A stretch of 64,000 bases of DNA from an uncultured Poribacteria bacterium (GTDB lineage: Bacteria > Poribacteria > WGA-4E > PCPOR2b). Position numbers and translations under genes: made by a program. Below, piece after piece: positions 1-4,537 of this stretch. The notes under the pieces are model-generated. The model was given only the letters and a program-made list of their open reading frames with translations, did no database searches and had not been told where the DNA came from. The stretch is taken from the NCBI GenBank assembly GCA_958296125.1, contig OY282444.1, forward strand, positions 4,249,623 through 4,313,622, in the 5' to 3' direction. Each line of letters opens with the position of its first letter. Position 1 is the first letter of the stretch.

Positions 1-2
1 AC

Positions 3-92
3 AAACCGGGGGGCTTCTCCGAAAGCACCGTCCGCTCTGTGCGTGGAAACAGTGCACAGCTCGATCTGGACATGGATATGTTTGATAAATAA
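3..92 (+). CDS. C-terminal end of an upstream gene (partial)
   Basis: An open frame enters from the left edge and stops with TAA at 90-92, giving about 29 residues ending in QLDLDMDMFDK. It lies 24 bases before the DUF1156 methyltransferase on the same strand, so the two are probably cotranscribed. DUF1156 methyltransferases are often preceded by a DUF499-type ATPase, and this tail could be the end of one. That is only a guess from context, because too little sequence is present to recognise a family. Confidence 0.45.
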   Translation, partial: KPGGFSESTVRSVRGNSAQLDLDMDMFDK

Positions 93-116: not shown

Positions 117-2939
117 ATGACCTCACGCAAGAAGCTTATTGAAGTTGACCTACCGCTAGACGACATCAACCGCGAATCCGCCCGCGAGAGGTTCTTCAAG
201 CACGGGCATCCGTCCACATTGCATACATGGTGGGCACGCCGCCCGTTAGCTGCGTGCCGCGCGGTCATCTTTGCCAGCATGGTGGATGACCCCTCCGCCT
301 GCCCCGATGAGTTCCCCACCCCGGACGAGCAACGTACCGAGCGAGAACGGCTCCACGAAATCATCCGACAGCTGGTCAAATGGGAGAACACCGATGAGAG
401 CCGATTTGGTGTGAAAACGCTCGTAGCAAACGCGCGCTACGAAATTGCCCGATCGGTGGCGCGTTCGCGGGGTGAAACGGCACCCACTGACCCGACTGAA
501 GTGTTGAACTACCTGCGTGAAAAGACGCTGCCAATATATGATCCCTTTGCCGGTGGCGGTTCTATCCCCCTTGAAGCGCAACGGCTCGGCCTGAAGGCGG
601 TCGCCTCGGACCTGAACCCGATAGCGGTTCTCCTTAACAAGGCGTTGATCGAAATACCACCGAAGTTCTGTAACCTTCCGCCGGTCAATCCCGAAGCGGA
701 CCGCATCGGAATGACAGTGGGCAAAGGGAAAAAGAAGCAGCAGCTGCCTTGGAGCGGCGCGTCCGGGCTCGCAGACGACATCCGCTATTACGGCGCGTGG
801 ATGCGCGAAGAGGCGTTTAAGCGGATCGGGCATCTCTATCCGAAGGTAAAAGGGACAAATGCTACTGTGATTGCGTGGCTTTGGGCGCGGACAATCCCCT
901 GTCCTAATCCCGCGTGCGGCATCCAGATGCCCCTGCTAAAGACCTTTCAACTCTCTATAAAGAGAAACAATCAACATTGGATTAAACCCGTCGTTGACTA
1001 CGAGACGAAGCGTGTATCCTTTGTGGTGTCCCGCGAGCGTCCGTTCCGTGACCAGGGTCCGTTCCGAGACCAGGGGGACAGCACGGTGGACCGCCACGGT
1101 GCCGTCTGTATTGCCTGCAACAACGCAGCTCCGCTGTCTTATGTCCGCGAGCAGGCGAAGGCTGGTAATATGGAGGAGCAGATGACTGCCATTGCCGCCG
1201 AGGGGGACCGCAGGCGGCTCTATGTGTCGCCGACCGATGAGCATATCCAAGCCGCACTATCCGCCGAACCCACTTGGCAGCCTTCCCAAGCAATGCCCGA
1301 TAACCCTACTTTGGTAAGTGGACGGGGGTTTGGCATTACCCATTGGCATCAACTTTTCACCAAACGTCAACTCACGGCATTGACCACGTTCAGCGACTTG
1401 ATTGCAGATGTCCACCAAATGGTAAAGCAAGAGGGTGGAAACGATGAATACGCTAATGCCCTTTGTGCATATCTTGCCCTCGCGGTTGGAAGAGAGGCAG
1501 ATATGTGCTCTAGCTTTGACAGATGGCAAAACTCTGGCGACAAAAGCGCCGGAGTTTTTGGTCGCCAGGCAATTCCGATGATTTATGATTTTGCTGAATC
1601 GAATCCCTTTTCCAATTCAGCAGGAAACTGGCTGGCACATATTAACTGGATTGCCAAGGTTATTGAGCGCCTGCCCGCGAATGTGAACAACGGGGCAGTC
1701 CACCAAGCGGATGCGTCCACCACGATTCACGCCCAAGATGGTCCTGTTATTGTTACCGATCCGCCCTACTACGATAACATCGACTATGCCGATTTGTCCG
1801 ATTTCTTTTACGTGTGGCTGCGTCCGTTACTCCGTGATATTTACCCGTATCTGTTTGCTGGTATCCTGACCCCCAAGGAGGAGGAGATAACAGCTATTCG
1901 ATCCCGATTTGATGAGCCCCGGCAGAGATTTGAGGGCTTGCTGAACAAGACCCTACAGTTGATACGGGAGCGATGCAGTCCGGAGTTTCCGGCCTCCATC
2001 TTCTACGCTTACAAGCAGCAGCAGGAAGAACGGGAAGGCAGGACATCCACCGGCTGGGAGACGATGCTGAGTGCTATCGTGGCGGCAGGGTTCGAGATAG
2101 TCGGCACTTGGCCCATGCGGACTGAGCGCTCCGTAAGATCGAACGCCTTGAGTGCTAATTCACTGGCATCGTCTGTGGTATTGGTCTGTCGCCCGCGTTC
2201 CGATGATGCCCCCATCGCAATGCGCCGCCAATTTTTCGCTGCCCTTGAGGAGGAGCTACCTGCGGCACTTGACCAACTGACGCAAAAAGGGCACATCGCC
2301 CCGACCGATCTGGCGCAAGCTGCTATCGGACCGGGGATGCAGATTTACTCCCGTTACCGCAGCGTGGAGACAATCAGCGGTGAGCCTGTCTCGGTGCGGG
2401 AGGCACTAACGGCGATTAACCGCGCCATCGCTGATTATGATGAGCGTCAAGAGGGCGATCTGGATTCGGAGAGCCGTTTCTGCCTCGATTGGCTCAAGCA
2501 GCACGGCTATGGAGAAGGGCTTTACGGGGACGCGGAAACACTGGCGCGCGCCAAGAATGTCACCATCGCCAAGTTGCGGGATGTTGACGGGCTGCTTGCC
2601 ACCCAGGGCGGAAAAGTGAGACTCCTGCCGCTCGATGCGTTTGCCGATGACGAACAGTTGACCCTTGGCGACCCGACAGCGTGGGAGGGATGTTTCCGCA
2701 TGGCGTATCACCTCAACCGCGAGGATGGCGAGGGCATCGCAGGTGCAGCGGCTGTCGGCAGAGGGATGGGGATTCATGTTGAGTCCGTTGAGCGGTTGGG
2801 GCGCATCCTCTATAACCATTATGACCGCCGGGGAGACTCCCAGGACGCTGTTATCTTCAATAACCTCGTTACGGAGTGGCAACGGATTCGTGAGAGAATG
2901 GGAGCTGATGAGCAACTCGACATCCCTAGTGTATCGTAA
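117..2939 (+). CDS. DUF1156-type adenine-specific DNA methyltransferase
   Basis: This 940-residue protein is a large DNA methyltransferase of the DUF1156 class. The N-terminus carries the family block with HPSTLHTWWARRP at about 31-43. The SAM-binding motif DPFAGGG is at 142-148, followed by an acidic SDLNP. The catalytic DPPYYDN motif starts at residue 548, and this type of motif points to N6-adenine methylation. Two cysteine pairs between them (C262/C267 and C331/C334) look like a zinc ribbon. The ATG at 117 follows a GAGGGAG Shine-Dalgarno. An 18-bp tandem duplication (1040-1075) repeats PFRDQG within the protein. Such genes usually lie in phage-defence or restriction islands beside ATPases, and the neighbouring Fic and GIY-YIG genes fit that. 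The target site cannot be read from the sequence. Confidence 0.88.
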   Translation: MTSRKKLIEVDLPLDDINRESARERFFKHGHPSTLHTWWARRPLAACRAVIFASMVDDPSACPDEFPTPDEQRTERERLHEIIRQLVKWENTDESRFGVKTLVANARYEIARSVARSRGETAPTDPTEVLNYLREKTLPIYDPFAGGGSIPLEAQRLGLKAVASDLNPIAVLLNKALIEIPPKFCNLPPVNPEADRIGMTVGKGKKKQQLPWSGASGLADDIRYYGAWMREEAFKRIGHLYPKVKGTNATVIAWLWARTIPCPNPACGIQMPLLKTFQLSIKRNNQHWIKPVVDYETKRVSFVVSRERPFRDQGPFRDQGDSTVDRHGAVCIACNNAAPLSYVREQAKAGNMEEQMTAIAAEGDRRRLYVSPTDEHIQAALSAEPTWQPSQAMPDNPTLVSGRGFGITHWHQLFTKRQLTALTTFSDLIADVHQMVKQEGGNDEYANALCAYLALAVGREADMCSSFDRWQNSGDKSAGVFGRQAIPMIYDFAESNPFSNSAGNWLAHINWIAKVIERLPANVNNGAVHQADASTTIHAQDGPVIVTDPPYYDNIDYADLSDFFYVWLRPLLRDIYPYLFAGILTPKEEEITAIRSRFDEPRQRFEGLLNKTLQLIRERCSPEFPASIFYAYKQQQEEREGRTSTGWETMLSAIVAAGFEIVGTWPMRTERSVRSNALSANSLASSVVLVCRPRSDDAPIAMRRQFFAALEEELPAALDQLTQKGHIAPTDLAQAAIGPGMQIYSRYRSVETISGEPVSVREALTAINRAIADYDERQEGDLDSESRFCLDWLKQHGYGEGLYGDAETLARAKNVTIAKLRDVDGLLATQGGKVRLLPLDAFADDEQLTLGDPTAWEGCFRMAYHLNREDGEGIAGAAAVGRGMGIHVESVERLGRILYNHYDRRGDSQDAVIFNNLVTEWQRIRERMGADEQLDIPSVS
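1040..1075 (+). repeat. 18-bp in-frame tandem duplication in the DUF1156 gene
   Basis: Two 18-bp copies, 1040-1057 and 1058-1075, differ at one base and encode PFRDQG twice. They lie between the two cysteine pairs of the methyltransferase. The copies preserve the reading frame, so this looks like a recent in-frame duplication. Confidence 0.8.
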
Positions 2940-3003
2940 TATGTATAAATATTATACATATCCACGTAATATGTATAATAATCGGCAAAAACTATACATA
3001 TTA
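2937..3003. promoter_or_regulatory. Paired inverted repeats, likely operator/promoter of the fic gene
   Basis: Four half-sites of TAATATGTATA type form two inverted repeats. The first has 9-bp arms at 2939-2947 and 2953-2961 with a 5-base centre. The second has 11-bp arms at 2967-2977 and 2993-3003. The left arms form a 30-bp-spaced direct repeat (about three helical turns), each preceded by CG. A TATAAT hexamer (2974-2979) overlaps the second repeat, so a bound protein would block initiation. The site starts over the stop codon of the methyltransferase and ends 24 bases before the fic ATG. Autoregulation by the winged-helix domain of Fic is an inference. Confidence 0.7.
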
Positions 3004-3027: not shown

Positions 3028-4122
3028 ATGGCAACGCAGGTCCAATTTAATCGAGATACCCCATGGAACCACATTCCTACCCTTCCACCGATGGCGGATA
3101 TCGAATCACCTGACATACTCAGAGCGTGTATTTCGGCAAGTTCAGAGCTTGCGAAGGCGAACGCCTTGGTAAAGATGCTTCCGAACGAAGCGGTCTTGGT
3201 CCACACCTTACCTGTTCAGGAGGCACGCAGAAGTTCGGAAATCGAAAATATCGTCACCACTAACGATGAACTGTATCGAGCCATGGCCACTAACAAATCT
3301 CAAGTTTCGCCCGCTACCAAAGAGGTGCTGCACTATCGGGAAGCATTGTGGGAAGGCATCAGTAGCCTGCGCGCCCGCCCTATTCTGAACGTGCCTATCT
3401 TCGAGCGGATTTGCTCACGGATTCGTGACGTAGAGATGCGGGTGCGTCCGGGTCCGGTGACGATTAGCAATTTCGCCACAGAGGAGGTCATCTACACGCC
3501 TCCCACCGGATATGAGCATCTTATCGGATTGTTAACCAACCTTGAGCACTTCATCAATGACAATGGCGACAACCTCCAACCGCTCGTCAAAATGGCCGTG
3601 ATACACTACCAGTTTGAAGCGATACACCCTTTTACAGACGGCAACGGACGCACCGGACGCATACTCAATATCCTCTATCTGATCCATCAGGGGTTGCTCG
3701 ATGTCCCAATCCTCTACCTAAGCCGTTTTTTCATTCAAAATCGGTCTGAGTATTACCGTTATCTACGCGAAGTCACGGAAGCCGGGAAATGGCAGCAGTG
3801 GATACTCTATATTCTGGAAGCGGTGACGCAAACATCGCGAGATACTGGGCGCAGGATAGCGGCAATTAGTGCTCTGATTGACAACGTAATTACAAAGGCG
3901 CGTGGCAAAACGAAAGCCGTTGAGCGCGAAGGTTTTGTTGATCTACTGTTCAAGTGGCCTTATTGTAAAATCGGTATTGTCAAGGACGAGCTGAAGTGTA
4001 GTCGCCTTACCGCCACCAAATACCTGAATGAGATAACGGATATTGGGTTGCTTGAACGCTTGAAGCTTGGACGAGAATACTACTACATTAACACGAGGCT
4101 TATGGAATTGTTATCAGAGTGA
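3028..4122 (+). CDS. Fic family protein with C-terminal winged helix
   Basis: This 364-residue Fic protein would transfer AMP or another phosphate-containing group from a nucleotide to a hydroxyl side chain. The full active-site motif HPFTDGNGRTGR begins at H200. An N-terminal inhibitory motif of the (S/T)xxxE(G/N) type is present as S69-S-E-I-E73-N74, so this is a class II, self-inhibited Fic enzyme. The last ~80 residues resemble a winged helix-turn-helix that could bind DNA. The ATG at 3028 follows AAAGGTGG. The gene is 88 bases after the DUF1156 methyltransferase, and paired palindromes lie in the gap, suggesting separate, probably autogenous control. The stop falls just before the GIY-YIG gene. 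Whether it acts in defence, as a toxin or as a regulator is unknown. Confidence 0.9.
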   Translation: MATQVQFNRDTPWNHIPTLPPMADIESPDILRACISASSELAKANALVKMLPNEAVLVHTLPVQEARRSSEIENIVTTNDELYRAMATNKSQVSPATKEVLHYREALWEGISSLRARPILNVPIFERICSRIRDVEMRVRPGPVTISNFATEEVIYTPPTGYEHLIGLLTNLEHFINDNGDNLQPLVKMAVIHYQFEAIHPFTDGNGRTGRILNILYLIHQGLLDVPILYLSRFFIQNRSEYYRYLREVTEAGKWQQWILYILEAVTQTSRDTGRRIAAISALIDNVITKARGKTKAVEREGFVDLLFKWPYCKIGIVKDELKCSRLTATKYLNEITDIGLLERLKLGREYYYINTRLMELLSE

Positions 4123-4138
4123 GATTGCGGCGGAGATC

Positions 4139-4537
4139 ATGCCCAACACACCCTACCGTTACACCCCCCCATTTTCGGTGAAGTATCGCCTAGAGCGCGA
4201 GCGTCAATCATTTACACGCGAGACGTTGCTGCGGCTGCCGAAAGATCGGTGCGGCTTATATGCCTTGTGGCTTCCAACGAGTGCGGCGGACGCGCCGGAA
4301 CGCCTCTATATTGGTATGTCCACGACCTGTGTGCGCCGCCGTTTGCTCCAGCACCTTTCAGACGAAGAGAATCCGGGGCTTCGGAAAGAACTCCGCATGT
4401 TCCCGGACCTCATCCAATTTTCGGTGGTATTCACGGAGGGGCACCAAGAGACGCTGGCGTTAGAAACAATGCTGATTCAAGAGATGCAACCTGAAACGAA
4501 TCGGTATAAGTTGAAGCCCCGCGCAGACCGAGAATGA
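4139..4537 (+). CDS. GIY-YIG domain protein
   Basis: The 132-residue product has the GIY-YIG nuclease fold: GLY at about 39-41, YIG at 57-59, an arginine-rich helix (VRRRLLQH), a glutamate in ALETML and a final asparagine in PETN. All the usual catalytic positions of the family appear present. The ATG at 4139 is preferred to the longer frame starting at 4067, because the longer N-terminus is only another-frame reading of the end of fic; GGAG at 4132-4135 precedes it, but at short spacing. The gene follows fic by 16 bases and is probably in the same transcript. Cleavage of DNA is the family expectation; its role here is not known. Confidence 0.78.
   Translation: MPNTPYRYTPPFSVKYRLERERQSFTRETLLRLPKDRCGLYALWLPTSAADAPERLYIGMSTTCVRRRLLQHLSDEENPGLRKELRMFPDLIQFSVVFTEGHQETLALETMLIQEMQPETNRYKLKPRADRE

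Follow-up and report, generated by a model that had tools for sequence, protein, structure and literature searches.

The two palindromes immediately upstream of fic very probably constitute an autoregulatory operator, at which the encoded Fic protein would control its own gene. An operator before fic had been proposed in an earlier sequence-only reading of this DNA, and two lines of comparative evidence favor it. The site is kept across loci whose upstream genes differ, and half-site and recognition helix covary across phyla, including in a prediction written beforehand. The window referred to below is the whole 64-kb stretch of DNA that was analyzed, and the features of the locus are summarized in Table 1.

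Table 1 Features of the fic locus in the window.
Feature	Positions	Strand	Remarks
hmaB, DUF1156 DNA methyltransferase; upstream neighbor, outside the operator unit	117-2939	+	PADLOC HmaB 3.6e-288
Whole candidate operator (four half-sites, two palindromes)	2937-3003	.	First 3 bases are the hmaB stop codon
Short palindrome, ATGTATA-N5-TATACAT, 19 bp, dyad 2950	2941-2959	.	From inverted-repeat and half-site coordinates
Gap between the palindromes, 11 bp	2960-2970	.	12 bp in other Poribacteria, 11 bp in E. coli
Long palindrome, ATGTATA-N15-TATACAT, 29 bp, dyad 2985	2971-2999	.	From half-site coordinates
TATAAT within the long palindrome, possible -10 box	2974-2979	+	Not kept in relatives
fic, SoFic-type, 364 aa; inhibitory motif SSEIEN, catalytic motif HPFTDGNGR, C-terminal winged helix	3028-4122	+	
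Codons of residues 324-333 (CSRLTATKYL), start of the recognition helix	3997-4026	+	Model helix 326-338
Small GIY-YIG-like gene	4139-4537	+	16 bp 3' of fic

The half-sites ATGTATA (forward, F) and TATACAT (reverse, R) start at 2941 (F), 2953 (R), 2971 (F), and 2993 (R). An inverted-repeat scan agreed with the sequence-only reading that four half-sites make two inverted repeats with left arms (2937 and 2967) 30 bp apart. Both repeats have perfect arms, of 10 bp with a 3-nt spacer in the first (2939-2948/2952-2961) and of 11 bp with a 15-nt spacer in the second (2967-2977/2993-3003); the arm lengths had been given as 9 and 11 bp, of which the second holds and the first does not. The pair occupies the whole space from the methyltransferase gene to the fic ATG at 3028, where it had been placed, and the methyltransferase stop codon (2937-2939) falls inside the first half-site. 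In the 64-kb window, TATGTATA sites occurred four times, all at 2937-3003, against 0.67 expected, and at least four were found in 0/100 shuffles. No second copy of the 23-bp palindrome was detected in the window at up to 3 mismatches (0 expected), and the short-palindrome core pattern was matched nowhere else in the 5.16-Mb genome when fewer than 3 mismatches were allowed. The 11-mer TAATATGTATA had two more single matches in the own genome, outside any palindrome found. This genome has one SoFic-like_C domain and one operator of this kind. The TATAAT reported in the second palindrome is present, and most poribacterial relatives read TATAGA or TATAAA at this position. A sigma-70 promoter scan gave no signal above shuffles, and TATAAT is a possible promoter -10.

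The Fic protein matched Fic_N (PF13784, 1.5e-23), Fic (PF02661, 3e-15), SoFic-like_C (PF21248, 5.5e-17), and the SoFic model of PADLOC (1.5e-109). SoFic proteins are class II Fic protein adenylyltransferases. Its score against the NCBIfam equivalog NF046030 was 425.6 bits, below the cut-off of 550; by this rule the protein is a SoFic-like relative and no equivalog. The catalytic motif HPFx[DE]GN[GK]R occurs as HPFTDGNGR at residues 200-208, and the N-terminal inhibitory motif [ST]xxxE[GN] as SSEIEN at residues 69-74. An AlphaFold2 model (pLDDT 84) contains a winged helix with its recognition helix at 326-338 and wing at 343-354, and superposes over the full-length fold on the crystal structures of Shewanella SoFic (TM 0.91 for 3zcn, 44% identity). 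The C-terminal winged helix suggested earlier was thus recovered by both the SoFic-like_C match and the structure model.

The GIY-YIG-like gene is probably in one transcript with fic. It encodes a protein of 132 aa, unlike the 47-aa AS1-type antitoxin, and was not seen among the few downstream genes scanned in poribacterial relatives. SoFic and this gene stand 3' of hmaB. The HmaC ATPase gene (window 1-92; L006 16308-19715) and hmaB have no adjoining hmaA, and the best HmaA-like gene of the genome is located ca. 3.8 Mb away (G000:C1:461867).

Homologous loci were searched for the half-sites among 80 relatives from GTDB genomes; readable upstream DNA was available for 20 relatives of the poribacterial group (including L045, labeled Chlorobiota). 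In all 20, the unit F-19-R/12 bp/F-29-R preceded fic, and no more than one of its 28 half-site positions was mismatched, so that the lack of conservation that would have spoken against the operator was not seen. The half-sites were 98% conserved compared with 77% for the spacers, and in several relatives the 19/29 unit recurs every 72 bp, in two or three copies. The gene before fic varied among these relatives; aminotransferase, tRNA synthetase, type III restriction, Eco57I-like methyltransferase, and secretin genes were among those found. Since the 19/29 pair is kept despite different upstream genes, we assign the site to fic rather than to the Hma methyltransferase. No half-site was found before the first hma gene of this locus, which, with the varied neighbors of fic, led us to reject the special tie to the DNA methyltransferase that had been proposed. 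SoFic genes often adjoin restriction-modification or methyltransferase genes (L207, L211, L216, L055, and L052).

The presence of the site also depended on whether fic has upstream DNA of its own. Where an upstream gene of the same strand lies no more than 45 bp from the SoFic start, a site was found in 0/12 loci, compared with 45/70 of the other SoFic genes (Fisher P=2e-5); in L207, which is among these 12, a variant palindrome narrowly missed the threshold. Absence of the site where fic directly follows another gene is expected for a promoter operator. A search far upstream of these operonic SoFic genes yielded nothing convincing. The remaining 25/70 loci with free upstream DNA scored below the threshold, and several of them have weak half-sites of the right class (GGT group). 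In two non-operonic loci, the own-class site lies at -272 (L063) and -62 (L087).

In other phyla, the SoFic upstream regions contained palindromes of the frame NATG-xyz-A-n-AA, which measure 29 bp from ATG to CAT, or 31 bp in total when one flanking base is included. Span and gap lengths were counted with one mismatch allowed and over all half-site pairs; one locus may therefore fill several bins, and self-complementary half-sites inflate the short spans. On this count, the 29-bp span was present in 19/19 poribacterial loci (window included) and 47/80 non-poribacterial loci, and the 19-bp span in 19/19 and 15/80, respectively. Of the other lengths between 11 and 48 bp, most occurred in a few loci each, and the 10-bp span (17 loci) was largely due to single self-complementary half-sites in which two matches overlap. 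Palindromes were separated by gaps of 11-12 bp in up to 45 loci. The two main spans differ by 10 bp, which is one turn of DNA.

SoFic was present in 278/5426 complete E. coli genomes, and regular half-site arrays preceded fic in the three E. coli loci read. The array of L224/L225 (F-169 R-147 F-129 R-117 F-99 R-77 F-59 R-47 F-29 R-7) consists of five palindromes with spans of 29, 19, 29, 19, and 29 bp and gaps of 11 bp. Half-sites of the same orientation are 30 bp apart in the window and 30/31 or 40/41 bp apart in arrays. The enterobacterial arrays (L220 and L223-L225) mix ATGTCGA and ATGTTTA, often with one of each per palindrome. In L224 (E. coli S10), the annotation marks sofic (1196-2271) as frameshifted, and another gene of the Fic family comes after it, from 2483 onward. 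The last half-site touches or includes the fic start codon in L223-L225, L209, L211, L213, and L214, where a clear Shine-Dalgarno sequence was not seen; leaderless fic transcripts are possible in these loci.

Across phyla, the frame and the spacing were kept, whereas the central triplet xyz (TAT, GGT, TTA, TCG, TAC, or TAA) varied with the recognition helix. In the training loci (L044-L123), on which the half-site scoring scheme was built, SR[LIV]TAT corresponded to TAT, KTVG and RKTAS to GGT, SRQTA to TTA, [KH]RQTA to TCG, ERRTA to TAC, and SR[IV]TA[AS] to TAA. This code was fixed in writing before the upstream DNA of held-out loci from viral contigs and plasmids was read. Under the written rules, 5.83 of the eight scorable held-out loci were correct (ties shared), compared with 1.45 expected (P=0.0001). 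A slightly wider rule gave 16.8/22, compared with 5.0 by chance and 12.7 in the best of 20,000 permutations, and is weaker evidence than the strict test because it was coded after the held-out sequences had been seen. SRPTA was a new helix type that the code did not predict, and it had TAA in 3/4 cases.

No other column of the protein alignment was associated with xyz as strongly as residue 327, at the start of the recognition helix. In loci whose nearest relative by Fic domain belonged to a different helix class, the site matched its own helix in 10/13 cases, three of which are of the SRPTA type, for which the class was assigned once these loci had been seen. Agreement with the own helix over that of the nearest relative speaks against mere common descent. 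With Fic-domain distance removed, a partial Spearman correlation over 28 non-redundant loci was modest and significant (r=0.23, P=0.0095); loci taken from genome contigs are not phylogenetically independent. The covariation suggests that the letters of the site are set by the protein's own HTH.

Together, the conservation and the covariation support the suggestion that Fic may repress itself through its own winged helix. We infer that SoFic binds the half-sites, that it represses rather than activates fic, and that binding is cooperative. A SoFic dimer would present one winged helix per subunit, each reading one NATG-xyz-A-n-AA half-site. Residues 325-330, where the recognition helix starts, would read xyz, which is TAT in this operator, and the wing would probably contact the A-rich inner part of the half-site. 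Dimers on the 19- and 29-bp palindromes would occupy almost the same side of the double helix and could bind together. By covering the DNA immediately upstream of the ribosome binding site, they would keep fic off until free SoFic is low. Repression is preferred because of the analogy with CccR of Yersinia pseudotuberculosis, described below, and the position of the site just before the ribosome binding site. The purpose may be to let a toxin that is suspected to act by abortive infection limit itself to a low level; the anti-phage role is taken from the literature on the SoFic family. Since leaky promoters suffice to make E. coli Sofic toxic (PMC12249575), tight self-limitation is plausible. 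Against this explanation, two palindrome lengths were found, where a rigid dimer would predict one, and the winged helix could also regulate the enzyme, as DNA stimulation of CbFic2 and the toxicity of E. coli Sofic illustrate.

The latter point leads to the alternative that SoFic binds DNA mainly for enzyme control, with the arrays storing an inactive or primed dimer that would switch AMPylation when it is released or binds again. In its favor, CbFic2 is stimulated in its AMPylation activity by DNA (PMC10628234), E. coli Sofic depends for its toxicity on the C-terminal domain, which shifts between states (PMC12249575), and the five palindromes of the E. coli arrays exceed the need of simple repression. 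On the other hand, the sites lie in cis to fic and are missing where fic has no promoter of its own, which fits gene control. We therefore regard enzyme control as the main role as unlikely, and it and fic autoregulation are not mutually exclusive. A bolder combination, which we consider distinctly improbable, is that SoFic dimers are kept on the alternating 19/29-bp arrays, whose palindromes are in helical phase, as a store that is DNA-bound and enzymatically controlled, and that a phage-caused change in this DNA or its occupancy derepresses fic and switches on AMPylation. If this were true, the store would be the missing trigger of SoFic defense.

It is very improbable that the palindromes are the site of another regulator, either of Hma defense or global. 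Palindromes alone do not name their protein, and an HTH gene adjoins some SoFic genes (L216 and L223 regions); however, the half-site tracks the Fic protein's own helix across phyla, the neighbors are not conserved, and the first hma gene has no half-site. An RNA hairpin in the fic leader, acting in translation control or attenuation, is extremely improbable. The transcript could form a long hairpin (-21.8 kcal/mol, z -1.9), but this is unexceptional compared with shuffles (8/200), a terminator was not found, the spacing keeps the helical phase of DNA, and the letters track a DNA-reading helix. Chance or a mobile repeat in AT-rich DNA is almost certainly wrong: the half-sites are AT-rich and the long form matched 119 viral-contig stretches, so that single chance matches can arise (none of the 80 listed of these 119 adjoins a Fic motif, and they were taken as chance), but the pair is unique in its genome, in phase, and kept in 20 relatives, a conservation that already refutes this explanation.

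Returning to autoregulation by SoFic, the closest precedent is CccR, which represses its own gene through a C-terminal HTH and a palindrome, as demonstrated by EMSA, footprinting, and reporter assays (PMC9755527). CccR is likewise a class II Fic protein with a C-terminal HTH and an inverted repeat before its own gene, and its dimer was measured to be needed for binding (PMC9755527). In contrast, CccR is a T6SS effector with 29% identity over 45% of SoFic (PMC9755527), and its footprint, AGATAATCAT-N26-ATGATAATCT, is a single palindrome with a 26-bp spacer. The locus described here also has a palindrome before its own gene, with alternating spans of 19 and 29 bp and gaps of 11-12 bp in place of that spacer.

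Within the family, SoFic of Shewanella oneidensis and Sofic of E. coli (PDB 3eqx, 3zcn, and 9vjc; PMC12249575) share the full-length fold, and the operator spacing in E. coli is identical. The E. coli gene is followed by the small antitoxin gene AS1, whereas a GIY-YIG gene stands in that place here. The 2025 paper on E. coli Sofic does not treat DNA binding and gives no operator, and it names as an open question how this anti-phage toxin, a single protein, is silenced and later switched on (PMC12249575). CbFic2 of Coxiella burnetii is also a Fic protein with a C-terminal winged helix and binds DNA; unlike here, random DNA was tested, DNA altered the enzyme activity, and an operator was not given (PMC10628234). 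According to the same 2023 paper, DNA binding by SoFic had not been demonstrated. Four newer PDB entries of SoFic (9tb0, 9tc4, 9tch, and 9tcl) might include a DNA complex. The phage-defense toxin system AbiEi, a type IV toxin-antitoxin, is also reported to be negatively autoregulated through several inverted repeats (PMC7319586), but a separate antitoxin, and not the toxin, binds the DNA.

Our literature search, which covered neither preprints nor most subscription papers, found no report of a SoFic operator. Autorepression by a Fic-HTH protein is already known from CccR, and what appears to be new, provisionally, are the predicted family-wide SoFic self-operators, the recognition code, and the alternating 19/29-bp helical spacing. 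A family-wide self-operator would be a direct and testable layer of control for SoFic, and the helix/half-site code together with the E. coli loci allows immediate tests in laboratory E. coli. A structural question raised by the alternating spacing is how one flexible dimer would serve palindromes that differ by one helical turn.
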